The notes under the pieces are model-generated. The model saw only the letters and a program-made list of their open reading frames with translations, was not told where the DNA came from and ran no database searches. Source: a virus. Taken from it: 30,389 bases of DNA. A program made the position numbers and the translations under genes. This document shows, piece after piece, positions 17,989-26,412 of this stretch; position 1 is the stretch's first letter, and every line of letters starts with the position of its first letter. Where the stretch lies: IMG/VR virus record IMGVR_UViG_3300031825_000261, positions 1 to 30,389 of that record; one strand, given 5' to 3'.

Positions 17989-18184
17989 GACGCATCTCCC
18001 GCAACTCCTGACAATCCACGCAGGTCACGCAACCCTGCACCCGTGCCCGGCGCGCCGCCGGGATCTCCTCGCCGCAGTCCTCGCAGAACTGCAGACTGAT
18101 CGTCGACGCCGCCGGCCGCTTGGCCAGGGCCAACTGGAGCAGGTAATCGGCGTGATCGTTCGCCTGGTCAACGACATCAGCCAT
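17981..18184 (-). CDS. TraR/DksA family zinc-finger protein
   Basis: A 67-aa protein with the zinc finger CEDC (Cys34, Cys37) and CVDC (Cys55, Cys58) spaced C-x2-C-x17-C-x2-C, exactly the TraR/DksA arrangement, in CEDCGEEIPAARRARV. The short N-terminal helix ends before the finger, like TraR rather than full-length DksA. TraR binds the RNA polymerase secondary channel and imitates DksA with ppGpp, so the phage may shift host transcription early in infection. GGAGG lies 7 nt before the ATG, which overlaps the end of the CII-like gene. Confidence 0.9.
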   Translation of the reverse strand: MADVVDQANDHADYLLQLALAKRPAASTISLQFCEDCGEEIPAARRARVQGCVTCVDCQELREMRRG

Positions 18185-18680
18185 GGCTCACCTCCTCGCC
18201 CTGCACATACGCTTCCATCGCCAGCTCAGCCCCGGCCACGATTCCGAGGATCTTCCCGATCACCCGATGCGCGTGATGGCGGAGCAGATCGACCTCGTGC
18301 CGTTCCCAGCGGGAGTCGGCGGCGCCCTGGTGCAGGCTGCCGACGAACTCTCCCTCGGCTTGCAACAATTTTCCCAGCTCCTGCAGCGCATCCGGAGCGG
18401 CCGGTACCGGCGTCGGAATGAAGGCCACCGCGCCGGCCGGACGGACCAGGGCCGCCAGTAGGCGCGGGTCGCGCGTCAGCCGAACGACCTCTTCCAGCTC
18501 TTCCGGCGTCGGGTAGCGCGAGGCGTTGTCGATGTGGAGTTTCTTCTGCAGGGCGTCGTACTCGAGCCCCATGTTGTAGGCGAGGCCCTTGAGCCCCCTG
18601 GAGTAGTCCTGGCCGGCGCGATACAGCGCCTCCCGGACCGTGAGAACCGGACCAGCGTCCGGCAATAGATCACGTGCCAT
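18177..18680 (-). CDS. CII-like regulatory protein (CP76 family)
   Basis: A 167-aa protein with VREALYRAGQDYSRGLKGLAYNMGLEYDALQKKLHIDNASRYPTPEELEEVVRLTRDPRLLAALV, which fits the phage regulatory protein CII (CP76) pattern: a helix-turn-helix around 'LA..MG.....L..KL' and 'EE...L..D..LL.AL'. The C-terminal part is helical. It is the first gene after cro and its stem-loop leader and precedes the replication genes, the place of lambda cII. It probably chooses between lysis and lysogeny; its binding site was not located. Confidence 0.8.
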   Translation of the reverse strand: MARDLLPDAGPVLTVREALYRAGQDYSRGLKGLAYNMGLEYDALQKKLHIDNASRYPTPEELEEVVRLTRDPRLLAALVRPAGAVAFIPTPVPAAPDALQELGKLLQAEGEFVGSLHQGAADSRWERHEVDLLRHHAHRVIGKILGIVAGAELAMEAYVQGEEVSHG

Positions 18681-18781
18681 AACCGAAAATTTCCCTGATT
18701 CGGCGTAGCCATAGAGCGGGCGGCTGCCCTACCCTATGCCTGCGCCGTTGTTACCGACTGCTGTGTCTCGCAGCGGCGCTC

Positions 18782-18814
18782 GTCGCCGGAGCTTGTGGTG
18801 AGTGAACCGGCGAC
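18782..18814 (-). promoter_or_regulatory. Stem-loop 1 displaying CACTCACCA
   Basis: Arms GTCGCCGG (18782-18789) and CCGGCGAC (18807-18814) form a perfect 8-bp stem. The 17-nt loop read on the minus (transcript) strand is TTCACTCACCACAAGCT. It is the last of three such stem-loops between cro and the CII-like gene. Confidence 0.75.
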
Positions 18815-18821
18815 ACCCCCG

Positions 18822-18863
18822 CCGGGATCAGGAGGTACTTGTGGTGAGTGATCCTGATCCCGG
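18822..18863 (-). promoter_or_regulatory. Stem-loop 2 displaying CACTCACCA
   Basis: Arms CCGGGATCAGGA (18822-18833) and TCCTGATCCCGG (18852-18863) form a perfect 12-bp stem with an 18-nt loop that reads TCACTCACCACAAGTACC on the minus strand. Fourteen loop bases match stem-loop 1 while the stems are unrelated. Confidence 0.78.
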
Positions 18864-18872
18864 CCCCTATTC

Positions 18873-18903
18873 CAGAGCCATCTGGTGAGTGGTGATGGCT
18901 CTG
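18873..18903 (-). promoter_or_regulatory. Stem-loop 3 displaying CACTCACCA
   Basis: Arms CAGAGCCATC (18873-18882) and GATGGCTCTG (18894-18903) form a perfect 10-bp stem with an 11-nt loop reading ACCACTCACCA on the minus strand. It begins directly after the cro stop codon. Confidence 0.75.
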
Positions 18904-19107
18904 TTATGCAGCCTTTTTCTTCGCACCAATCGGGCGAATTTCAAATGCCTCGAATGATCCATCGGGCAGCGGCCGGACACGGATATCACGGCCCGACTTC
19001 ATCATCTGGGAGACAGCGCTCTGAGAGACGCCGAATAGATCAGCTAACTCAGGCTGAGTCCTTCCCTTAGCAAACTCGGCAAGCTTCTTGCCAAAGACCT
19101 CGTCCAT
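18904..19107 (-). CDS. Cro-like repressor
   Basis: A 67-aa DNA-binding protein, MDEVFGKKLAEFAKGRTQPELADLFGVSQSAVSQMMKSGRDIRVRPLPDGSFEAFEIRP. The helix-turn-helix is QPELADLFGVSQSAVSQMM and the C-terminal strand with basic tail KKKAA resembles lambda Cro. It is the first gene of the leftward early operon and divergent from the repressor, as in lambda. ATG 19107 is used; GTG one codon upstream is equally well placed behind GAGG. Confidence 0.85.
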   Translation of the reverse strand: MDEVFGKKLAEFAKGRTQPELADLFGVSQSAVSQMMKSGRDIRVRPLPDGSFEAFEIRPIGAKKKAA

Positions 19108-19138
19108 CACTCATATCCTCGATGGGTCAACGCCAAGA

Positions 19139-19167
19139 ATATTAGTGTTACTTCTAAAAATACGCAA
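19139..19167 (-). promoter_or_regulatory. Promoter for cro and the lytic early operon (PR-like)
   Basis: On the minus strand TTGCGT (19167-19162), a 17-bp spacer and TAATAT (19144-19139). The operator-like site ATTAGTGTTACT (19141-19152) covers the -10 and the spacer, so repressor binding there would block it. Confidence 0.7.
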
Positions 19168-19185
19168 GCAGATATTAGTGGCACT
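19141..19185. promoter_or_regulatory. Two operator-like sites between cI and cro
   Basis: ATTAGTGTTACT at 19141-19152 and ATTAGTGGCACT at 19174-19185, 33 bp apart. The core AGTnnnACT is dyad-symmetric. Two more close matches, ATAAGTGATACT, lie at the second early promoter, so these are likely CI/Cro operators, equivalent to OR and OL of lambda. Confidence 0.65.
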
Positions 19186-19187
19186 GT

Positions 19188-19216
19188 TTGAAAGAAATAA
19201 GCGGCCCTTATAGATT
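19188..19216 (+). promoter_or_regulatory. Repressor promoter giving a near-leaderless mRNA
   Basis: TTGAAA (19188-19193), 17-bp spacer, TAGATT (19211-19216); an alternative pair is TGTTTG (19186-19191) with TATAGA (19209-19214). Either places the transcript start at about 19221-19224, at the ATG of the repressor, which has no Shine-Dalgarno. Lambda cI from PRM is also leaderless. Confidence 0.6.
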
Positions 19217-19223
19217 GCGCACC

Positions 19224-20033
19224 ATGAGCACAGAACCCGATTACGTCGCCGAAGAAGCCGCCAAGTTGATGGCAATCTACCGTCAGAGAAAGAAGGTAGA
19301 TCGCAGCTTGACCCAGGAAAAAATCGCAGACGCTTGCGAATGGTCTGGTCAGAGCACCGTCAGCCAATACCTAAACGGCAAGATCCCCCTGAATCTTCCG
19401 GCACTGATGAAATTTGCGACCATCCTCGACTTTAGTCTTGAGGAGGTTAGCCCGCGCCTGGCTGCAATCGTTGACACAAAAGAGAAACGAGACGGTAACC
19501 TAACACTCAGAGAAGGGAGCCAAGGCCACTACGCCCTTGAACCCAAGGCGGAAACATCTCTGGACCTTACCCCATGCGAGGTATGGGATGACGAGACCCC
19601 ACTCGGCGATGACGAGGTAGAGCTGCCCTTCTTCAAAGAAGTAGAACTATCCGCCGGTAAGGGATCAGAAGTAATGCTCGAAACCCATGGAAGAAAGCTC
19701 CGATTCGGTAAGCGGACGCTCCAGAAGAAAGGCATTGCACCTGACTCAGCAGCCTGCGCGACGGTTTACGGCAACAGCATGGAGCCAGTCCTTCCGAGCG
19801 GTAGCACGGTTGGCGTGGATAAATCATCCACCCAAGTGCAGGACGGCCAAATGTATGCCATCGAGCATGACGGGCAACTCCGGGTAAAAATCCTGTATCG
19901 CCTGCCTGGCGGTGGGCTACGTCTTCGCAGCTACAACATCGATGAGCATCCAGATGAGCGATATGATGCCGAGTACGTCAAAGACAAGATCCGAGTCATA
20001 GGTAGAGTTTTCTGGTACTCCGTGCTTCTTTGA
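19224..20033 (+). CDS. CI/PrtR-type repressor with S24 self-cleaving domain
   Basis: A 269-aa prophage repressor. The N-terminal helix-turn-helix is SLTQEKIADACEWSGQSTVSQYLNGKIPLN (about 28-57). The C-terminal LexA-like S24 domain has the catalytic Ser185 in VYGNSMEPVLPSGS and Lys222 in LRVKILY. The probable cleavage bond is Ala144-Gly145 in ELSAGKGS, upstream of the domain as expected, so SOS/RecA induction is likely. It keeps both early operons silent through the AGTnnnACT sites and probably controls its own promoter. ATG 19224 has no ribosome site and seems leaderless; an upstream ATG at 19188 lies inside the promoter and is rejected. Confidence 0.92.
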   Translation: MSTEPDYVAEEAAKLMAIYRQRKKVDRSLTQEKIADACEWSGQSTVSQYLNGKIPLNLPALMKFATILDFSLEEVSPRLAAIVDTKEKRDGNLTLREGSQGHYALEPKAETSLDLTPCEVWDDETPLGDDEVELPFFKEVELSAGKGSEVMLETHGRKLRFGKRTLQKKGIAPDSAACATVYGNSMEPVLPSGSTVGVDKSSTQVQDGQMYAIEHDGQLRVKILYRLPGGGLRLRSYNIDEHPDERYDAEYVKDKIRVIGRVFWYSVLL

Positions 20034-20053
20034 GCACCACCTATACCCAAACC

Positions 20054-20077
20054 AAGGCCGCCCACGCGGCCTTTTTT
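20054..20077 (+). terminator. Terminator of the repressor gene
   Basis: AAGGCCGC - CCAC - GCGGCCTT is an 8-bp stem with a 4-nt loop that runs into TTTTTT. It separates repressor transcription from the downstream early operon. Confidence 0.9.
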
Positions 20078-20106
20078 ATGCCCTTCATTAGGAACGAACT
20101 TATTTT

Positions 20107-20143
20107 ATAAGTGATACTGTTGACTTATAAGATAAGTGATACT
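20107..20143. promoter_or_regulatory. Two operator-like sites at the second early promoter
   Basis: ATAAGTGATACT occurs twice, at 20107-20118 and 20132-20143, 25 bp apart. One lies upstream of the -35 box and one covers the spacer and the start of the -10. They match the AGTnnnACT core of the sites near cro. Confidence 0.65.
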
Positions 20144-20148
20144 AATTT
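20120..20148 (+). promoter_or_regulatory. Promoter of the rightward early operon (PL-like)
   Basis: TTGACT (20120-20125), 17-bp spacer, TAATTT (20143-20148). It is the only strong promoter seen before the block from 20182 to 27157, so the retroelement is likely transcribed from it on induction, unless an internal promoter exists. Confidence 0.72.
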
Positions 20149-20153
20149 TATGA

Positions 20154-20179
20154 CCGTACCCACTCACCACAGGGAACGG
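20154..20179 (+). promoter_or_regulatory. Imperfect stem-loop displaying ACTCACCACA over the first ribosome site
   Basis: CCGT (20154-20157) pairs with ACGG (20176-20179), then after an A-A mismatch CCC (20159-20161) pairs with GGG (20172-20174); the loop is ACTCACCACA. The right arm includes the AGGGA ribosome site of the gene at 20182, so the fold would hide it. Confidence 0.55.
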
Positions 20180-20181
20180 CC

Positions 20182-20370
20182 ATGCAACAGACACAGCAAT
20201 CTCCCCGCTGCCCGGTGTACCTGCACCCGGCCTGCGCCTCCAGCCCCAACACCATCCGCAGCATCCAGGCCCGCACTGGCCTGCTGGTAATCACCGGCAA
20301 AAGCCGCAAGGCACCGACGCTCGCCCGCCCCACCGATGACTTCGGCCCCTGGGGAGGCGATGCAGCATGA
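20182..20370 (+). CDS. Small hypothetical early protein
   Basis: A 62-aa protein, MQQTQQSPRCPVYLHPACASS..., the first gene of the rightward early operon. The middle part TIRSIQARTGLLVITGKSRKAPTL is a short sequence seen in small phage proteins of Pseudomonas; I know no function for it. It has AGGGA 7-8 nt upstream, inside the CACTCACCA stem-loop, and its stop overlaps the next start as ATGA. The Cys/His content is too low for a clear zinc site. Confidence 0.65.
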   Translation: MQQTQQSPRCPVYLHPACASSPNTIRSIQARTGLLVITGKSRKAPTLARPTDDFGPWGGDAA

Positions 20371-20945
20371 GCCGCAAGATCCTCATCGGCCTCGCCGGCC
20401 CCGCCCGTAGTGGCAAGAGCACCGCCGCCACCTACATCGAACAGCAGTTCGGCTTCGCTCAGTACGCATTCGCCCAGCCGCTGAAGGAAGCCCTGCGCGG
20501 TATGCTGAACCTCAGCGACCGCGAGCTGGAGGGCGATCTGAAGGAGGAGGCGCTGACCGACATCGGCCTCAGCCCCCGCCAGCTGATGCAGACCTTGGGC
20601 ACGGAATGGGGCCGCCAGCACGGCGGGCGCGACTTCTGGCTGCGCGTGGCGGAACGCCGTCTGGCGCACATCGAGGACGCTCTCCCCCATGCCTTCAACG
20701 GCTACGTCATCAGTGACGTGCGTTTCGAGAATGAGGCCGCCTGGGTGCGCGCCCGCGGCGGAGTAATCCTGCACATCCACCGCCCGGACGCGCCCCAGGT
20801 CGCCAGCCACAGCAGCGAGCACGGCATCGCCATCCACGGCGGCGACATCGAGATCAGCAACGACGCGGACATCGAGACGCTCCACGCCGTGCTGCGCGCC
20901 ATCATCGGCGGAATCATCTGCCGCCAGCTGCGCAAGGCCGCTTGA
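20367..20945 (+). CDS. Deoxynucleoside monophosphate kinase
   Basis: A 192-aa P-loop kinase. Walker A GPARSGKST spans residues 11-19. FAQPLKEALRGMLNLSDRELEGDLKE and SPRQLMQTLGTEWGRQ follow, which are family features of phage dNMP kinases related to T4 gp1, and YVISDVRFENEAAWVRARGGVILHI is the Walker B/LID-following part. It would phosphorylate dNMPs to dNDPs to supply phage replication. The start overlaps the stop of the preceding gene (ATGA). Confidence 0.88.
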   Translation: MSRKILIGLAGPARSGKSTAATYIEQQFGFAQYAFAQPLKEALRGMLNLSDRELEGDLKEEALTDIGLSPRQLMQTLGTEWGRQHGGRDFWLRVAERRLAHIEDALPHAFNGYVISDVRFENEAAWVRARGGVILHIHRPDAPQVASHSSEHGIAIHGGDIEISNDADIETLHAVLRAIIGGIICRQLRKAA

Positions 20946-20955
20946 GGTCGTCGCC

Positions 20956-21270
20956 ATGAACCGCAACCTCGACGCCACCGCCGCCGTACTCGGCCTGGGC
21001 CCACGCAAGCTGCGCGCCCGTCTGCGCGAGCTGGGGATTCTCAACTCCGCCGGCGATCTGGCCTGCGCTCACCGCGACCGCGGCTACCTGTTCGTGCAGA
21101 ACCGCAGCCGTTGGAACCAAAGCATCCGCAGTTGGAGCCACTACGGCGTGGTCATGGTTACCGAGCGCGGCATCGGCTGGCTGGCCCAGCAGCTCGGCAT
21201 CCCGGTCCACTCCCAGGGCGCACGCCCTGCCGAGGGGTGCGGGGAGCAATCCAGCGAGGCCTGCGCATGA
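20956..21270 (+). CDS. KilAC-like (phage antirepressor C-domain) small protein
   Basis: A 104-aa protein with VLGLGPRKLRARLRELGILNSAGDLACAHRDRGYLFVQNRSRWNQSIRSWSHYGVVMVTERGIGWLAQQLG, the pattern of the KilAC domain of phage antirepressors: an HTH with 'L...LRE.G.L', a wing, and 'V...G..WL...L'. Antirepressors normally carry this domain behind an N-terminal DNA-binding or Bro domain, which is missing here, so it acts alone or is a diverged regulator. The C-terminal tail is unordered. It overlaps the next gene by 4 nt. Confidence 0.72.
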   Translation: MNRNLDATAAVLGLGPRKLRARLRELGILNSAGDLACAHRDRGYLFVQNRSRWNQSIRSWSHYGVVMVTERGIGWLAQQLGIPVHSQGARPAEGCGEQSSEACA

Positions 21271-21539
21271 GCACGACCTACCAGCAGTTGCTGCGCCGCT
21301 ACGACAGGCCCTGCCTGCCGCTGGCGGATGTGATGGCCGAGTACCTACCGCACATCCAGAGCGTCGATCACCTGATGGCGCTGATCCGCTCCAGGGAAAT
21401 CAGCCTGCGCTACACCCGCCTGCACTCCAGCCGCAAAGCGCCGCCAGTCGTCTACCTGTACGACCTGGCCGCCTGGCTCGATGCACAGGCACCGAACAAC
21501 CAACCACTCACCACACCCGCTGCCAACCAGGCGGCATAA
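21267..21539 (+). CDS. PrtN-like protein 1
   Basis: A 90-aa protein, MSTTYQQLLRRYDRPCLPLADVMAEYLPHIQSVDHLMALIRSREISLRYTRLHSSRKAPPVVYLYDLAAWLDAQ. It has the pyocin activator PrtN layout: a strand/turn opening, 'PL..V..EY', 'I..GEI.L......S.K.P..V...DLA.WLD'. It is clearly a paralogue of the second PrtN-like gene at 26873 but much diverged. The start ATG overlaps the KilAC stop (ATGA). A copy of CACTCACCACA lies in its last codons (21505-21515). Its target promoter is unknown. Confidence 0.7.
   Translation: MSTTYQQLLRRYDRPCLPLADVMAEYLPHIQSVDHLMALIRSREISLRYTRLHSSRKAPPVVYLYDLAAWLDAQAPNNQPLTTPAANQAA
21505..21515 (+). promoter_or_regulatory. CACTCACCACA copy inside the end of the PrtN-like gene
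   Basis: An 11-nt match in sense orientation, 46 nt before the ATG at 21561. No strong flanking stem was seen, so this may be a linear copy. Confidence 0.35.
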
Positions 21540-21560
21540 CCCAAACGGGAGACACAGCAG

Positions 21561-21908
21561 ATGAAACCCACCGATACCAACGAGTTCCTCAACTCGCTCA
21601 ACGCCGGCGTATTCGCCCAGCAACTGGGCCGGGCGCTGTCCGACGTCGCCGCCGGAGTCGTCGACTACAGCAAGAAGGGCAAGGTGATCATCACCCTGGA
21701 GCTGAGCCAAATCGGCGAGAGCAACCAGGTGAAGATCAACCACAAGCTCAACTACACCGTGCCCACCAAGCGCGGCAGCAAGAGCGAGGACACCGCCCTC
21801 GACACGCCCATGTACGTCACCGCCAACGGCCTGGAGCTGTTCCAGACCGATCCGACCGCCCAGCTGTTCAACCGCGAACAAGCGCCGGTCGTGCCGCAGT
21901 CCGTTTAA
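21561..21908 (+). CDS. Hypothetical protein preceding DUF2303
   Basis: A 115-aa protein (MKPTDTNEFLNSLNAGVFAQQLGRALSDVAAGVVDYSKKGKVIITLELSQIG...). A helical N-terminus is followed by GKVIITLELSQI and VKINHKLNYTVPTKRG, a beta-sheet half, and a tail TAQLFNREQ. The same gene commonly sits before a DUF2303 gene in Pseudomonas prophages; no function is known to me. Its ribosome region GGGAGACACAGC is identical over 12 nt to that before the gene at 22833. Confidence 0.72.
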   Translation: MKPTDTNEFLNSLNAGVFAQQLGRALSDVAAGVVDYSKKGKVIITLELSQIGESNQVKINHKLNYTVPTKRGSKSEDTALDTPMYVTANGLELFQTDPTAQLFNREQAPVVPQSV

Positions 21909-21920
21909 CCCCTGAAAAAT

Positions 21921-21931
21921 CACTCACCACA
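21921..21931 (+). promoter_or_regulatory. CACTCACCACA copy before the DUF2303 gene
   Basis: The motif is followed at once by AGGAA, the ribosome site of the gene at 21945. Only weak pairing (CTGA/TCAG) flanks it, so a stable stem is not supported here. Confidence 0.45.
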
Positions 21932-21944
21932 AGGAACCATCAGC

Positions 21945-22766
21945 ATGTCGCTGACCCAAGAAGCCATCCAGCTCATCATCGATAACGCCGCTCTGGCCCA
22001 TAGCAAGATGCCTGAGACCAACACGCCGGTCGCCGTTCTGCCTTCGAGCGTGAAGCTGGCCAACATGGAGCACTACCAGGCCGGACGCTCCCGCTTTCGC
22101 GGCGAGCTGGACACCCACAGCCTGGCCGACTTCACCAAATACGTGGAGCGTCACACCACCGAGCAGCAAACCGCCGGCGGGTTCATCGATCAGGACGCCA
22201 TGTCCGCGACTGTGATCTTCAACCTGGGCAACGTGGCAACTCCAGGCCATGCCGACGACAAGGCCACTCTCACCCTCAAACCCACCGCTGCCTATACCGC
22301 CCTGCAGAAGGTTATCGGGAAAGGCCTCAGCCAGCAGGCGCTGGCCGAATGGCTGGAGGACTGGGCACCGAACGTCCAGGCGTTTGCTGGCGACCAGCCA
22401 CTGAACATCGCCCTGGCCATCGCCGGCATCCGCAAGATGACCATCAAGTCCAGCAGCCAGCGCGACAGTACCGTCGGCGATTTCAGCGCCTCCCGCAGCG
22501 CCATGGACGAGATCGAGGCCCGCAGCCAGGAAACCCTGCCGACCCAGTTCCAATTCACCACCGTGCCGTTCGAAGGCCTGCAGTCCGCCACCATCGACCT
22601 GCGCCTTTCCGTACTGACTGGCTCCGATACCCCGGTGCTCAAGCTGCGCTGGGTCGGCGAAGAGGCCCAGCGCGAAGAGTTCGCCCGCCAGTTCAAGAGC
22701 GTGCTCGAGGCTGAGGTCGGCGGGCTTGTGCCGCTGACCATCGGCACCTTCAACCCCGGCAACTAA
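21945..22766 (+). CDS. DUF2303 family protein (YfdQ-like)
   Basis: A 273-aa protein with the DUF2303 layout: an N-terminal helix (MSLTQEAIQLIIDNAALA), VAVLPSSVKLANMEHYQAGRSRFRGELDTHSLADFTKYVERH, FIDQDAMSATVIFNLGN, ALAEWLEDWAP and a C-terminal beta-rich half (LPTQFQFTTVPFEGL...LKLRWVG). The gene is common in the lambda-gam/bet position of Pseudomonas and Escherichia prophages (YfdQ); its function is unknown to me but the place suggests a role in early DNA metabolism or host takeover. AAGGAA forms the ribosome site. Confidence 0.85.
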   Translation: MSLTQEAIQLIIDNAALAHSKMPETNTPVAVLPSSVKLANMEHYQAGRSRFRGELDTHSLADFTKYVERHTTEQQTAGGFIDQDAMSATVIFNLGNVATPGHADDKATLTLKPTAAYTALQKVIGKGLSQQALAEWLEDWAPNVQAFAGDQPLNIALAIAGIRKMTIKSSSQRDSTVGDFSASRSAMDEIEARSQETLPTQFQFTTVPFEGLQSATIDLRLSVLTGSDTPVLKLRWVGEEAQREEFARQFKSVLEAEVGGLVPLTIGTFNPGN

Positions 22767-22777
22767 CCGCCACCACT

Positions 22778-22818
22778 AGCCCGCCGCCGTCACTCACCAC
22801 AGCACCCGGCGGCGGGCT
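22778..22818 (+). promoter_or_regulatory. Stem-loop 4 displaying CACTCACCA
   Basis: Arms AGCCCGCCGCCG (22778-22789) and CGGCGGCGGGCT (22807-22818) form a perfect 12-bp stem; the 17-nt loop is TCACTCACCACAGCACC. The loop matches those on the opposite operon while the stem does not. It lies in the 66-nt gap before the gene at 22833. Confidence 0.78.
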
Positions 22819-22832
22819 CAGGGAGACACAGC

Positions 22833-23315
22833 ATGAACACCTACATCATCGTCGGGGCCATGGTCCTGATCGGAAGCCTTGCATACGCGGTTCTGTTGCA
22901 GAAACTCTCCAGCGCCAAGGATCGCTCCTACGCCATCGGCTACTCGGCCGGCGCCGAGAGCCAGCAGGGCACGATCACCGCCCTGCAACGCCAGATCGAC
23001 AACCAGACCGTCGACCTCCTCAAGCTGCGAGCCGCCCGTGAGCGCGAACGTAACGAAGCCCGCCAGGCACTGGAACAGGCCGTCCACGACGCCGACCAGC
23101 GCCTCGCCGACGCCGAACGCCGCGCTCTGAGCGCCGAGGACGCCACCACCCTGCGCGCCTTCGCCGCTCAGTTGGAGGTGGCTGCCACCACCTGCAATAA
23201 CGTCGGCGCCACGGTTGCCGCCGACAACATGAAGCGCGGCGCCGCCATCGCTCGCGACCTGGCAGACCGAATCATCCCCACCACCGAATCCGTACAGCTG
23301 GAGGCTGCAGCATGA
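22833..23315 (+). CDS. Membrane-anchored coiled-coil protein of unknown function
   Basis: A 160-aa protein with one N-terminal membrane segment (residues 3-22, TYIIVGAMVLIGSLAYAVLL) and no clear cleavage site, then a long Arg/Glu/Ala-rich coiled coil (about 45-105, including LRAARERERNEARQALEQAV). This shape recalls an inner membrane spanin, but it is far from the holin and on the opposite strand, so I do not call it one. The end overlaps the first DGR target gene as ATGA, so both are translated together. The start is behind GGGAG. Confidence 0.7.
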   Translation: MNTYIIVGAMVLIGSLAYAVLLQKLSSAKDRSYAIGYSAGAESQQGTITALQRQIDNQTVDLLKLRAARERERNEARQALEQAVHDADQRLADAERRALSAEDATTLRAFAAQLEVAATTCNNVGATVAADNMKRGAAIARDLADRIIPTTESVQLEAAA

Positions 23316-23920
23316 ACAACGCCACTATCACCGCATCGCTTCCCGCCATCGGCACCCCGTTTGAGGGCGGCTTCTTCGCCGGCCTGTTTTACCTGAACGG
23401 CGATACCTACGCCCTGATCGTCTCCCCACGCGCCCAAGGCGAACTCGAGGAGGCCGCGTGGGGCCCGCGTGGGTTGGATATCTCTGCACGCAGCTATAAC
23501 GACGGGATGGCCAATACCCAGGCCATGGCCGATGCCGGAAGCGATCTGGCTCGCTGGATGCTCGCTCTGGAGATCAGCGGATTCACCGACTGGTACCTGC
23601 CCAGCCGAGACGAGCTGGAGATCCTCTACCGCAACCTCAAGCCCACCACAGCCAGCAATTACACCTGGCGCGCCGGCGATAACCCCAGCAGCGTGCCGCC
23701 CGGCTATCCGTATACCGAGGAAGTGCCTGCACAGACTGCAGCCGCTGCATTCCAAGACGGCGCCGGCGAGGCCCTCTCGCCCGAGTGGTACTGGAGCAGC
23801 ACGCAGTACAGCCCGACCAACGCGTGGATTCAGGACTTCGCCGATGGCGACCAGCACGACGTCCACAAGGGCGGCGAGTACCGCGCGCGGGCCGTCCGCA
23901 GATTCAAGGTTACCCCTTAA
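23312..23920 (+). CDS. DGR target protein 1 (C-type-lectin-like, DUF1566)
   Basis: A 202-aa variable protein without signal peptide. It has the DUF1566/Lcl C-terminal layout: an N-terminal strand pair FEGGFFAGLFYLNGDTYALIV, GMANTQAMAD, the hallmark GFTDWYLPSRDELEIL, and the final WYWSSTQYS.TNAWIQ...RARAVRRFKV which is the C-type lectin fold exposing the variable face. Residues about 164-196 are encoded by VR1. Compared with the template, Asn/Asp codons read Thr, Asp, Ala, His, Asp, Val, Gly, Gly, Tyr. DGR-diversified lectins bind ligands; which particle or surface carries this one is unknown. It is coupled by ATGA to the gene before it and followed by a GCA-loop hairpin. Confidence 0.92.
   Translation: MNNATITASLPAIGTPFEGGFFAGLFYLNGDTYALIVSPRAQGELEEAAWGPRGLDISARSYNDGMANTQAMADAGSDLARWMLALEISGFTDWYLPSRDELEILYRNLKPTTASNYTWRAGDNPSSVPPGYPYTEEVPAQTAAAAFQDGAGEALSPEWYWSSTQYSPTNAWIQDFADGDQHDVHKGGEYRARAVRRFKVTP
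23802..23901 (+). repeat. Variable repeat VR1 of the DGR
   Basis: 100 bp aligned without gaps to the template repeat at 25195-25294. There are 10 differences, at 23817, 23834, 23841, 23855, 23858, 23862, 23871, 23873, 23874 and 23879; each corresponds to an A in the template. All C, G and T positions are identical. The last 21 bp, GC-rich, are unchanged and would be the site where homing starts. Confidence 0.96.
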
Positions 23921-23939
23921 TCCTTTCACCTATTTCATG

Positions 23940-23958
23940 CCCCGCGCGCAGCGCGGGG
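23940..23958 (+). other. DNA/RNA hairpin after VR1 (homing hairpin candidate)
   Basis: CCCCGCGC - GCA - GCGCGGGG, an 8-bp perfect stem, 38 nt after VR1. No T-run follows, so it is not a normal terminator. A similar hairpin follows VR2 at nearly the same distance and none follows the template. Target-site hairpins of 7-10 bp are needed for efficient homing in the Bordetella phage DGR. Confidence 0.72.
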
Positions 23959-23984
23959 ACGCTCCAAATTTTGAGGGCTTGAAC

Positions 23985-24614
23985 ATGCAACACATCACCT
24001 TGGATATCGGCAGCACCTCGCTAAAAACCACCAATGCGGCCTTGGCCCGTCAGGTACTGGAGCAGGAAGCCGGTCTGGCCTGCACGGTAGAGCTGACCTC
24101 CGGCGAGCTGGTCGCCCGAAACTCGATTTGTCCGCCGGCGATTGGCCAGTTCTGGCCGGAGCAAGGCGGCATCTATGCCGGCCTGATGCGCGGCGAGAAC
24201 GGCGGCCCGGATTACCACCTGATCGTCGCAGCAGACCTGGCCGGCAGCATCGAGGACATCGTCTGGGGCTCGGCCAGTCAGGAAGAGTCCGGCGCCACCA
24301 GTTCACTCGATGGCCTGGCCAATACCCGGGCCCTGCTCGACTCCCCCCATGACCATCCCGCGGCGCAGTGGGCAGCCGGGCTGCAGATCGACGGCTATCA
24401 CGACTTCTATCTGCCGGCCCGCCGGGAGCTACGGCTGTGCTGGATCAATGTGCCCGAGCTGTTCGAGGACGCCTGGTACTGGAGCAGTACGCAGTACAGC
24501 CCGAGCAGCGCGTGGATTCAGGGCTTCGACGATGGCGACCAGTACTACGGCCACAAGGGCATCGAGTACCGCGCGCGGGCCGTCCGCAGAGTGCTCACCA
24601 CTTCAGCCCTTTAA
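23985..24614 (+). CDS. DGR target protein 2 (C-type-lectin-like, DUF1566)
   Basis: A 209-aa paralogue of target 1; ATG 23985 has GAGGG 7 nt upstream. The N-terminal 45 residues (MQHITLDIGSTSLKTTNAALARQVLEQEAGLACTVEL) are not in target 1. Then GQFWPEQGGIYAGLMRGENGGPDYHLIVAADLAG, GLANTRALL, the DUF1566 hallmark GYHDFYLPARRELRL, and the final AWYWSSTQYSPSSAWIQ. Residues about 169-202 come from VR2; template Asn/Asp codons read Ser, Ser, Gly, Tyr, Tyr, Gly, Gly, Ile, Tyr. No export signal is visible. Having two targets served by one template doubles the number of variants that can be displayed. Confidence 0.92.
   Translation: MQHITLDIGSTSLKTTNAALARQVLEQEAGLACTVELTSGELVARNSICPPAIGQFWPEQGGIYAGLMRGENGGPDYHLIVAADLAGSIEDIVWGSASQEESGATSSLDGLANTRALLDSPHDHPAAQWAAGLQIDGYHDFYLPARRELRLCWINVPELFEDAWYWSSTQYSPSSAWIQGFDDGDQYYGHKGIEYRARAVRRVLTTSAL
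24490..24589 (+). repeat. Variable repeat VR2 of the DGR
   Basis: 100 bp, gap-free against the template. There are 10 differences at 24505, 24508, 24522, 24523, 24543, 24546, 24550, 24559, 24562 and 24567, again all at template adenines. Eight of the ten template sites are shared with VR1, with different bases at several. Confidence 0.96.
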
Positions 24615-24624
24615 CCCTTTGGGG

Positions 24625-24643
24625 GCGCGGGCGCAGCCCGCGC
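24625..24643 (+). other. DNA/RNA hairpin after VR2 (homing hairpin candidate)
   Basis: GCGCGGGC - GCA - GCCCGCGC, an 8-bp perfect stem 35 nt after VR2. It has the same loop and length as the hairpin after VR1, with a different stem. There is no T-run. Confidence 0.72.
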
Positions 24644-24659
24644 TTCGCGAGTTTCCAGC

Positions 24660-25022
24660 ATGGCCATAGCCCAACACCTGCCGATCTACAAGCTGGCCAG
24701 CGATCTCGCCAGCCTGGCGGCCGATCTCACAAAGAACATGCCGCGGGACTTCAAGCGGACGCTCGGTGAGAAGGTGCTGGTGGAGTGCATCGATGTCTGC
24801 GTCCTGATCTTCCGCGCTAACGTCGCGACGGGAAACGACCGGGTACCGCACATCCAGCAGATCCTGGAGCGCATCCAGATCATCGAGCTGATGCTGCGGC
24901 TTTGCGTAGACAAGCGCCTCATCAGCACCAGCCAGTTCGCCAGATCAATCGAGATCACCGACTCGATAGGCAAGCAGGCCACTGGGTGGAAAAAGTATGC
25001 AGCCGCAACGCCTGCTGCCTGA
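24660..25022 (+). CDS. avd: Accessory variability determinant, Avd family
   Basis: A 120-aa predicted four-helix-bundle protein. MAIAQHLPIYKLASDLASLAADLTKNMPRDFKRTLGEKVLVECIDVCVLIFRAN and later IQIIELMLRLCVDKRLISTSQFARSIEITDSIGKQATGWKK match the Avd/four helix bundle family ('LPKDFR.TLGE', a central basic face, and a last helix ending 'GW.K'). In the Bordetella DGR Avd forms a pentameric barrel that binds the reverse transcriptase and the template RNA. It lies between target 2 and the template repeat, the usual DGR order. The ribosome site is weak. Confidence 0.88.
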   Translation: MAIAQHLPIYKLASDLASLAADLTKNMPRDFKRTLGEKVLVECIDVCVLIFRANVATGNDRVPHIQQILERIQIIELMLRLCVDKRLISTSQFARSIEITDSIGKQATGWKKYAAATPAA

Positions 25023-25194
25023 GCGTCACGGCGCCCAGGCCAGTGCGACTTTGAATCTGGTCGTGCCGCTGGCCTACCCGGCCACCGCCATGCGAACCAG
25101 GGGAACCATCCGGCGTCGGCCGGACAGGCCCCGCGCAATTTCACCACTGATCGGCCCAGGCCTTCGGTGGTGCGATGTGAATAGCACGACTTAG

Positions 25195-25294
25195 CGCAGT
25201 ACAGCCCGAACAACGCGTGGATTCAGAACTTCGACGATGGCGACCAGAACAACGACCACAAGGACAACGAGAACCGCGCGCGGGCCGTCCGCAG
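25195..25294 (+). repeat. Template repeat TR of the DGR
   Basis: 100 bp, in the frame of the targets it would code Asn at AAC codons (template positions 15-17, 18-20, 33-35, 54-56, 57-59, 72-74, 78-80) and Asp at GAC codons; 30 of its bases are A. Twelve template positions are seen changed in one or both variable repeats: 16, 19, 33, 34, 40, 54, 57, 61, 70, 72, 73 and 78. The unchanged GC-rich end (positions 80-100) contains a single A. It lies in a 172-nt gap after avd and overlaps the first codons of the longest RT frame. Confidence 0.96.
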
Positions 25295-26412
25295 CTTCAA
25301 CCGGCTCTTCCCATGCTGGACTTTCTTTCGAGGCTCTCGTGCAGGCGTACCTGGACTGCCGGCGCAACAAGCGCAGCAGCACCTCCGCCTTGGCATTCGA
25401 GCTGAACCTGGAGCAAAACCTCATGCAACTGCATACCGAGCTGAACAGCGGAACCTACCAGCCCGGCACCTCCATCTGTTTCGTGGTGACCCACCCGAAA
25501 CCCCGCGAGGTATGGGCCGCAGAATTCCGCGACCGCATCGTTCACCACATGCTCTATAACCACGTCGGCGCCCGCATCGAGCGTACCTTCATCGCCGACA
25601 GCTGTGCTTGCATCCCGGGCCGCGGCACGCTCTACGCCGCACAGCGCCTGGATGGCAAGATCCGCAGCATCACGCAGAACTGGAGCCAGCCTGCGCATTA
25701 TCTCAAGTGCGACTTGGCCAACTTCTTCGTCAGCATCGACAAGCGCGTGCTGGCCGAACAGCTCAAGGTCCGTATCCCAGAGCCGAACTGGCAGCAACTG
25801 GCCCGGCAGATCCTGCTGCACGATCCGCGCGAGAACTACCAGCTTCGCAGCGCACAGCGGCTGTTCAATCGGGTTCCGCAGCACAAGCGCCTGGCCAGTC
25901 AGCCGGCCCACCTCGGCCTTCCGATCGGCAACCTATCGTCGCAGTTCTTCGCCAACGTCTACCTCGATGCCCTCGACCAGTTCGTGAAACACCAGCTGCG
26001 CGTCCGGCATTACATCCGCTACGTGGACGACTTCATCCTGCTGCACGAGTCACCCCAGCAGCTCAACGCCTGGCGCGAACAGATCGAGTCCTTTCTGGCC
26101 GAGCGCTTGCACGTGCGCCTCAATCCCAGCAAGACCATCCTGCAGCCGGTCAGTCGCGGCGTCGACTTCGTCGGCCAGGTCATCAAGCCCTGGCGCCGCA
26201 TCACCCGTCGCCGCACCGTCGACAACGCCCTGCGCCGGGTTGCCACCGCGCCTGCAGACCAGCTGCGGGAAACCGCCAACAGCTACTTCGGCCAGCTTCG
26301 CCAGGCCACCCACAGCCAGAACGACCGCCGGAAACTCGCGAAAGCCCTGCTGCTACGCGGCAAGGCCGTCAATGCCGAGCTGAGCAAGACCTATAAAGGA
26401 GTGCGGGTATGA
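25237..26412 (+). CDS. DGR reverse transcriptase
   Basis: Up to 391 aa; the RT catalytic Asps are Asp159 (HYLKCDLANFFVSID) and the YVDD box (residues 262-265, RYVDDFILLH). The motif IGNLSSQFFANVYLD (230-244) has the [IVL]GxxxSQ form that marks DGR RTs, where most RTs have QGxxxSP. There is no maturase or RNase H domain. It copies the template RNA and misincorporates at A. Start choice is open: ATG 25237 lies in TR and lacks a good ribosome site; GTG 25339 has GAGG 5 nt upstream but cuts the conserved LSFEALVQAY helix. The stop overlaps the next gene as ATGA. Confidence 0.96.
   Translation: MATRTTTTRTTRTARGPSAASTGSSHAGLSFEALVQAYLDCRRNKRSSTSALAFELNLEQNLMQLHTELNSGTYQPGTSICFVVTHPKPREVWAAEFRDRIVHHMLYNHVGARIERTFIADSCACIPGRGTLYAAQRLDGKIRSITQNWSQPAHYLKCDLANFFVSIDKRVLAEQLKVRIPEPNWQQLARQILLHDPRENYQLRSAQRLFNRVPQHKRLASQPAHLGLPIGNLSSQFFANVYLDALDQFVKHQLRVRHYIRYVDDFILLHESPQQLNAWREQIESFLAERLHVRLNPSKTILQPVSRGVDFVGQVIKPWRRITRRRTVDNALRRVATAPADQLRETANSYFGQLRQATHSQNDRRKLAKALLLRGKAVNAELSKTYKGVRV

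Follow-up and report, generated by a model that had tools for sequence, protein, structure and literature searches.

Inverted Loop Elements in the Early Region of Pseudomonas Prophages Suggest a Second, RNA-Based Immunity Layer with a Phage-Specific Loop Code

The c4 RNA of phages P1 and P7 possesses loops that are complementary to short segments in the vicinity of a lytic gene's ribosome-binding site, and sequence differences give rise to heteroimmunity, as set out in the available part of PMC12197685. In coliphage 186, the promoter pR is convergent with pE, and transcription of cI proceeds from both pL and pE, according to the sections of PMC7708051 at hand. In the cluster K mycobacteriophages, short repeats termed start-associated sequences (SAS, with an extended form, ESAS) are found where a subset of the genes begin, in some cases with inverted repeats; the accessible portion of PMC3203893 gives their function as unknown, and the question has been open since 2011. 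In this report, we analyze the divergent immunity region of a 30,389-base virus record (IMG/VR record IMGVR_UViG_3300031825_000261, the whole of which is called the window) together with its relatives. Two short elements, A (GACACAGCA) and B (CACTCACCA), recur along the early operon of the plus strand and are found inverted in the gap between the cro-like and cII-like genes. This arrangement suggests that a family of Pseudomonas prophages carries a second, RNA-based layer of immunity with a phage-specific loop code.

Element B was found as seven exact copies, each at the position given in the original prediction: three on the minus strand (18796, 18842, and 18883) and four on the plus strand (20161, 21505, 21921, and 22791). 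By simple arithmetic, about 0.2 copies of an exact 9-mer are expected by chance in 30 kb on both strands; when one mismatch is allowed, the count (8 seen, 6.2 expected) does not discriminate. Compared with the other four, the three cro-cII copies stand in inverted orientation, a point that the original prediction had not noted. The same pattern is followed by element A, likewise absent from that prediction, which is located at 20190, 21551, and 22825 with its complement at 18759. It stands at start codons in the plus-strand operon and inverted within the hairpins of the gap, where the A elements mostly lack a start codon and yet are complementary to the regions from ribosome-binding site to AUG of the targets. 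Since the gap copies are inverted with respect to the others, the opposite strand of the gap encodes loops of the UGGUGAG type that are antisense to the plus-strand operon.

The inverted copies are presented by four hairpins on the plus strand. The first (18742-18779) carries an anti-A loop in which CTGCTGTGTCTC, at 18758-18769, is the complement of GAGACACAGCAG before the gene at 21561. The other three carry anti-B loops: TGTGGTGAGTGAA in a 17-nt loop on an 8-bp stem (18782-18814), CTTGTGGTGAGTGA in an 18-nt loop on a 13-bp stem (18821-18864), and TGGTGAGTGGT in an 11-nt loop on a 10-bp stem (18873-18903). A further plus-strand hairpin, with a 12-bp stem and a 17-nt loop (22778-22818), displays target B upstream of the gene at 22833. 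Four perfect stems with loops of 17-18 nt had been proposed; the stems of 8, 10, and 12 bp were reproduced and the second was found to be 13 bp rather than 12 bp, while the loop size holds for three of the hairpins but not for that at 18873-18903. The copy at 20161, which had been placed in an imperfect hairpin over a ribosome site, does lie in such a structure, and by inspection a related leader stem is present in most relatives. One 9-mer is common to the three minus-strand loops; in 60 dinucleotide shuffles of this stretch, no two hairpin loops had a 9-mer in common.

Four target units can be recognized in the plus-strand early operon, which starts at 20182. These are the first gene (phrog_13491, here p13491, 62 aa; 20182-20370), a YfdP-like gene (phrog_204; 21561-21908), a DUF2303 (YfdQ-like) gene (21945-22766), and a hypothetical gene (phrog_34956; 22833-23315). 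Target B is located at the ribosome-binding site of p13491 (CCACTCACCACA, 20160-20171), 58 nt upstream of the 21561 gene at the 3' end of a prtN-like gene (21503-21515), and at the ribosome-binding site of the DUF2303 gene (ATCACTCACCACAAG, 21919-21933). Target A is found within the first codons of p13491 (AGACACAGCA, 20189-20198) and at the ribosome-binding sites of the 21561 gene (GAGACACAGCAG, 21549-21560) and of the 22833 gene (GAGACACAGCA, 22823-22833); all of these sites are on the plus strand. The complementarity to the gap amounts to 15 nt for yfdQ, 12 nt for yfdP, and 11 nt each for p13491 and the 22833 gene.

The comparison was extended to 224 sequences including the window. IMG/VR loci were collected via DUF2303 (80 loci), p13491 (11), and p5689 (80 rows, partly overlapping); 49 further loci came from bacterial genomes, nearly all Pseudomonas or Stutzerimonas, and the phage records compared were PG1, pAN, KT1, SC_9, LPPA56, Meadow, Turba, and Lodos. 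Among 131 distinct loci, Watson-Crick complementarity of at least 10 nt with the plus-strand gap RNA was found at the start of p13491 in 125 of 131, of yfdP in 62 of 95, of yfdQ in 86 of 104, and in the region after yfdQ in 95 of 102. The corresponding values for the control starts were 0/131 for p5689, 6/128 for prtN, 2/126 for traR, and 2/131 for cII. Starts with at least 11 complementary nt in five phages were only those of p13491, yfdP, yfdQ, the gene or genes after yfdQ, or their equivalents in Turba, which lacks yfdQ; not every target reaches 11 nt in each of the five. Among the best 12 starts per phage, the others reached at most 10 nt, and the one with 10 nt is yfdP of LPPA56.

The sites are associated with translational independence. 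In seven phages, a site was found at 21 of 31 uncoupled starts and at 0 of 62 coupled starts (Fisher 1e-13; the phages are related). Uncoupled starts were those that came first or stood 15 nt or more from the preceding gene; the thresholds of 10 nt and 15 nt, like the gap lengths, were chosen by hand, misses include five uncoupled starts with 9 nt, and the list for the window ended at 23920. This distribution bears on two other explanations. The likeness to lambda nut sites noted in the original prediction, by which the elements would serve processive antitermination in both early operons, is confined to position: copies stand in the cro-cII interval and ahead of the opposite operon's first gene, which are the places of nutR and nutL in lambda. 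The plus-strand copies, however, are not only promoter-proximal, and more of them are found at internal ribosome sites tied to translational coupling; the stems have no constant sequence, the loops range from 7 to 19 nt, and terminator-like sites in the window (11 found, 9.7 expected) are not above shuffles. We regard antitermination as very unlikely. Elements acting on DNA or in replication, such as operators or primase and initiation sites that happen to fall in palindromes, would fit an orientation that points outward from the immunity region both ways, as fork-related signals could, but not the tight tie to uncoupled starts and to the position relative to the start codon; the primase, moreover, is identical at 909 of 912 residues between two phages with different loops (LPPA56 and Meadow). 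The probability of this explanation is smaller still.

The plus strand of the gap has a promoter signature. Of 128 distinct gaps, 115 have TAGCCA-N17/18-TAYNNT on that strand and none has it on the minus strand (shuffles, mean 0.25), with a spacer of exactly 17 (71 gaps) or 18 (44 gaps); by eye, the remaining 13 gaps have near-variants at the same place. The anti-A motif TGCTGTG follows at most 70 nt downstream in 113 of the 128, and when only the first 136 nt of the gaps are considered the signature is present in 85 of 100. In the window, the -35-like TAGCCA (18706-18711, plus) and the -10-like TACCCT (18730-18735, plus) are separated by 18 bp. Just upstream of the -35 is an inverted repeat, CCGAA-n11-TTCGG (18683-18703), that may serve as an activator site; most relatives have an inverted repeat of class-specific sequence at this position, the class of which tracks the CII type in class 3 (17 of 18), with classes 1 and 2 not separated. 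The predicted antisense leader RNA would start near 18742 and comprise the four hairpins (18742-18903, plus), with a minimum free energy of -88.3 kcal/mol against -75.4 kcal/mol for the other strand. Six loci without the signature in those first 136 nt (L096, L098, L099, and L145-L147) have it deeper in the gap, which is longer in these loci; it stands midway there, flanked on either side by A and B hairpins.

The flanking genes are those of a divergent switch. On the minus strand are the CII-like activator (18177-18680; Phage_CP76, E 3.7e-15; phrog_101), from a family to which the CII of phage 186 presumably belongs as well, and the Cro-like repressor (18904-19110; PF09048, E 3.2e-9), while the CI-like repressor (helix-turn-helix and Peptidase_S24; 19224-20033, ATG start read from the sequence) is on the plus strand. 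The signature thus lies between the cro-like gene and cII and reads toward cI, at what we take to be the place of the 186 promoter pE. It had been claimed that all copies act in the sense orientation; because a conserved promoter signature on the opposite strand immediately precedes the cro-cII copies, these are better read as antisense.

The layout is common to all eight phage records, with other loops, and more than 100 distinct related Pseudomonas phage loci have the elements. The loop is CACTTACCA in PG1, CACTCACCA in pAN, CTCTCACC in KT1 and SC_9, CTCTCAC in Meadow, Turba, and Lodos, and CTCTAC in LPPA56; the genome-specific types are CTCACCA, CTTACCA, CTCTCAC, CTCTGAC, and CTCTAC. The sites occupy conserved places, namely the leader of p13491, either side of yfdQ, and the cII-cro gap with 1-5 copies. 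Of 131 distinct loci examined, 124 could be typed at both places, and in 121 of these the loop in the leader agrees with that in the gap (the mean after shuffling is 43 and the maximum 59), and the loop after yfdQ agrees with the gap in 88 of 93 (shuffled mean 29). Some of the changes affect a single base of the loop on an unchanged stem, as in GCCGGCGCGGGA-CTCTGACC-TCCCGCGCCGGC versus the same stem with CTCTCACC. In two exceptions the leader has T where the gap has C, a combination that would be G-U to an antisense RNA. The constant loop on unrelated stems had been taken as a selected RNA feature, and this view is strengthened by the relatives, where every genome keeps to one loop at conserved positions. 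The loop had also been expected to be conserved among related phages; taken literally it is not, yet it changes at all sites of a genome together.

A phage RNA-binding protein would offer another explanation of the loops, which could be sense sites for a RegA-like or coat-protein-like regulator of early-operon translation, with the gap copies acting on cII or as a reservoir. The sites are at ribosome-binding sites, including that of the first plus-strand gene, the sense loops are C/A-rich and easily single-stranded, and the loops vary between phages as a specific protein-RNA pair would. The gap copies, however, are far from start codons and downstream of the opposite-strand signature, two unrelated elements share the inverted layout, and no candidate protein was found within the fetched stretches, where p13491, traR, prtN, cII, p5689, and the primase are identical or nearly so across a loop change. 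Between LPPA56 (CTCTAC) and Meadow (CTCTCAC), identities in addition to that of the primase are 80/80 for TraR, 165/166 for CII, 77/78 for the PrtN-like protein, and 91/94 for p5689; of the shared early genes, cI, cro, and p13491 (54/69) alone were conspicuous, and the values for orf2, hyp9232, and an HD gene are 94/101, 108/122, and 115/178. In L005 and L093, which differ in their loops, the HD genes are 100% identical. Across the loop change between L003 and L005, traR is 100% and cII 99% identical; prtN is 100% identical across the change in L003/L007 and in L098/L099; and cI differs widely among phages that share one loop type.

Three candidates for the specificity factor were considered and rejected. 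The p13491 protein, 78% identical between L003 and L005, was evaluated as an N-like or specificity factor, but identical p13491 is found with CTCACCA and with CTTACCA, and the CTCTGAC loop occurs with two p13491 types. DUF2303/YfdQ was evaluated as a trans factor; among the loci collected via DUF2303, those with yfdP-yfdQ but lacking the neighboring genes (e.g., L061-L073) have no recognizable sites around yfdQ, and Turba, Meadow, and Lodos lack yfdQ yet carry sites. For a separate phage-encoded complementary RNA, TGGTAAG of PG1 was found only opposite CTTACCA copies that read in the early-operon sense. Since identical proteins occur with different loops and one loop with two p13491 types, no early protein examined carries the loop specificity, nor does any track the loop as an N-like factor would. 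Altogether, a protein reader of the loops appears improbable.

Our preferred explanation, which we hold to be probable on the evidence of sequence, is that the gap RNA from the strand opposite to cro-cII is an establishment transcript whose leader silences the lytic operon by pairing of its loops with ribosome-binding sites. Upon infection, the cro-cII operon would make CII, and CII would switch on the conserved gap promoter beside cII, which is most likely CII-activated in the manner of 186 pE. The transcript would run from the gap through antisense-cro toward cI and yield CI. Its hairpin loops would pair with B (CUNACC type) and A (GACACAGCA) at the independent ribosome-binding sites of the lytic operon, and this pairing would block translation and close each translation unit, so that the transcript starting CI synthesis would also silence the lytic operon. 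Because base pairing would be the sole link between regulator and targets, the sites within a genome would all have to change together, and each phage would have its own loop code. The CUNA core in most target loops would fit the U-turn motif of antisense systems; the CTCTAC type does not. The sequence itself shows the elements and where they stand, their inversion, the concordance across each genome, the promoter signature, and the complementarity; from these we infer transcription of the gap, its dependence on CII, pairing in vivo, and the direction of the effect.

Folding was examined for 87 distinct gaps that fit two layouts. The plus strand has the lower minimum free energy in 49 of 54 short (type A) gaps and in 32 of 33 long (type B) gaps, and after correction with shuffles it is preferred in 30 of 33 type B gaps; the group A alignment was too mixed for consensus folding. 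Several results weigh against a silencing leader RNA. The corrected preference holds for only 30 of 54 type A gaps. In the stems of B-loop hairpins, G-U and A-C combinations (42 and 32) choose no strand, and in those of A-loop hairpins (14 and 28) they are opposite to a plus-strand RNA. Internal mismatches between target and gap are even (6 would be G-U, 5 A-C), and in the predicted fold only part of the anti-loops is open, with 0.44 and 0.57 unpaired. Locus L074 has C in the leader and T in the gap, and these loops would mismatch. Seven CII variants have no recognized inverted repeat beside cII. The loci are related, so the counts are of non-independent events. Shared words of at least 10 nt across the whole window (22) are not above shuffles (mean 12, maximum 25), and the enrichment is therefore positional. 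Strong intrinsic terminators were found on the plus strand in 9-15 of 127 gaps and on the minus strand in 5; given this rarity, the RNA would continue through antisense-cro into cI in most phages.

The gap of L172 has a textbook plus-strand intrinsic terminator about 185 nt from the cII start, which would give a stand-alone small RNA. Rfam gave no match at the gathering threshold for L002, L004, L007, and L059. At a permissive threshold, the window stretch and the gaps of L001 and L004 gave nothing relevant, and no C4, presumably the Rfam name of the P1/P7 c4 RNA.

The minus strand of the window also encodes a DksA/TraR-like gene and a PriCT-2/Toprim primase. In the p13491 gene, the middle is variable and the ends are conserved, with the A element in the N-terminal codons and the Shine-Dalgarno sequence of the next gene in the C-terminal codons; its AlphaFold model has a mean predicted local distance difference test (pLDDT) score of 65.5. 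Loci L061-L073, L075-L077, and L079-L088 have DUF2303 and a YfdP-like gene without the rest of the early operon, and no sites were seen around yfdQ. Positions 23312-26412 of the window contain a diversity-generating retroelement with an Lcl_C-type target gene, a bAvd-like gene (24660-25022), an RT-15 RNA (RF03018, 25006-25196), and a reverse transcriptase (25237-26412).

The SAS of the cluster K mycobacteriophages offer a parallel that is a lead and not a result. In the 34.6 kb scanned of the 59.6-kb Adephagia genome, 16 SAS are on the plus strand and one is on the minus strand. The reverse copy (L224:33683-33695) forms the loop of a long hairpin, which stands in a non-coding gap of 432 nt; this loop is kept on changed stems in LilPharaoh and Niklas (L225 and L233) and was absent from the fetched stretches of seven other phages (present in 3 of 10). 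In the Adephagia stretch, SAS were found at 13 of 21 uncoupled and at 3 of 40 coupled starts. The 13-bp consensus, GGGATAGGAGCCC, stands at start codons and includes the Shine-Dalgarno sequence; the window elements are unrelated to it, and unlike in the Pseudomonas phages no loop code between phages was seen. A broader proposal combines these observations: a multitarget antisense immunity RNA from the lysogeny-establishment promoter would silence the early lytic units, a one-base loop code would set who silences whom, this RNA-level heteroimmunity would be separate from that of CI and its operators, and the SAS of cluster K1 would use the same design. We advance it tentatively, as somewhat doubtful in its entirety. 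The leader-RNA reading itself predicts that some phages would be immune to one another where typing by CI would not reveal it, and it offers a direct test for the unexplained SAS. The concerted code change in many Pseudomonas prophages also provides a natural set of pairs, both matched and mismatched, in which the specificity of RNA-RNA pairing could be measured.

No description of this system was found in literature searches of open-licence papers. The prophage antisense RNA STnc6030 of BTP1 mediates superinfection exclusion, but is opposite late genes, as far as the available text of PMC7067206 goes. The promoter pE of 186 is likewise convergent with the early lytic promoter and feeds cI, and in the part of PMC7708051 at hand no antisense function is described for its leader. 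The sar RNA of P22 resembles the proposed RNA in its antisense control of an early lytic gene in support of lysogeny; it has one target (ant) in the available account (PMC12197685), whereas several units are targeted here. The nearest in action is c4, which on the same partial evidence (PMC12197685) also directs loops against a ribosome-binding site and has variant sequences. As in c4, the candidate regulator sequences of the window are in loops, albeit partly open ones, and are complementary to the ribosome-binding regions of their targets. The differences are that several independent starts are targeted and that the RNA lies between cII and cro, with a CII-type promoter signature, reading toward cI; by the Rfam test, in which the window RNA matched no family, it is not a member. 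Both c4 and sar have been described for single targets, whereas in these prophages a single leader RNA appears to serve an entire operon and to be wired to the CII switch.

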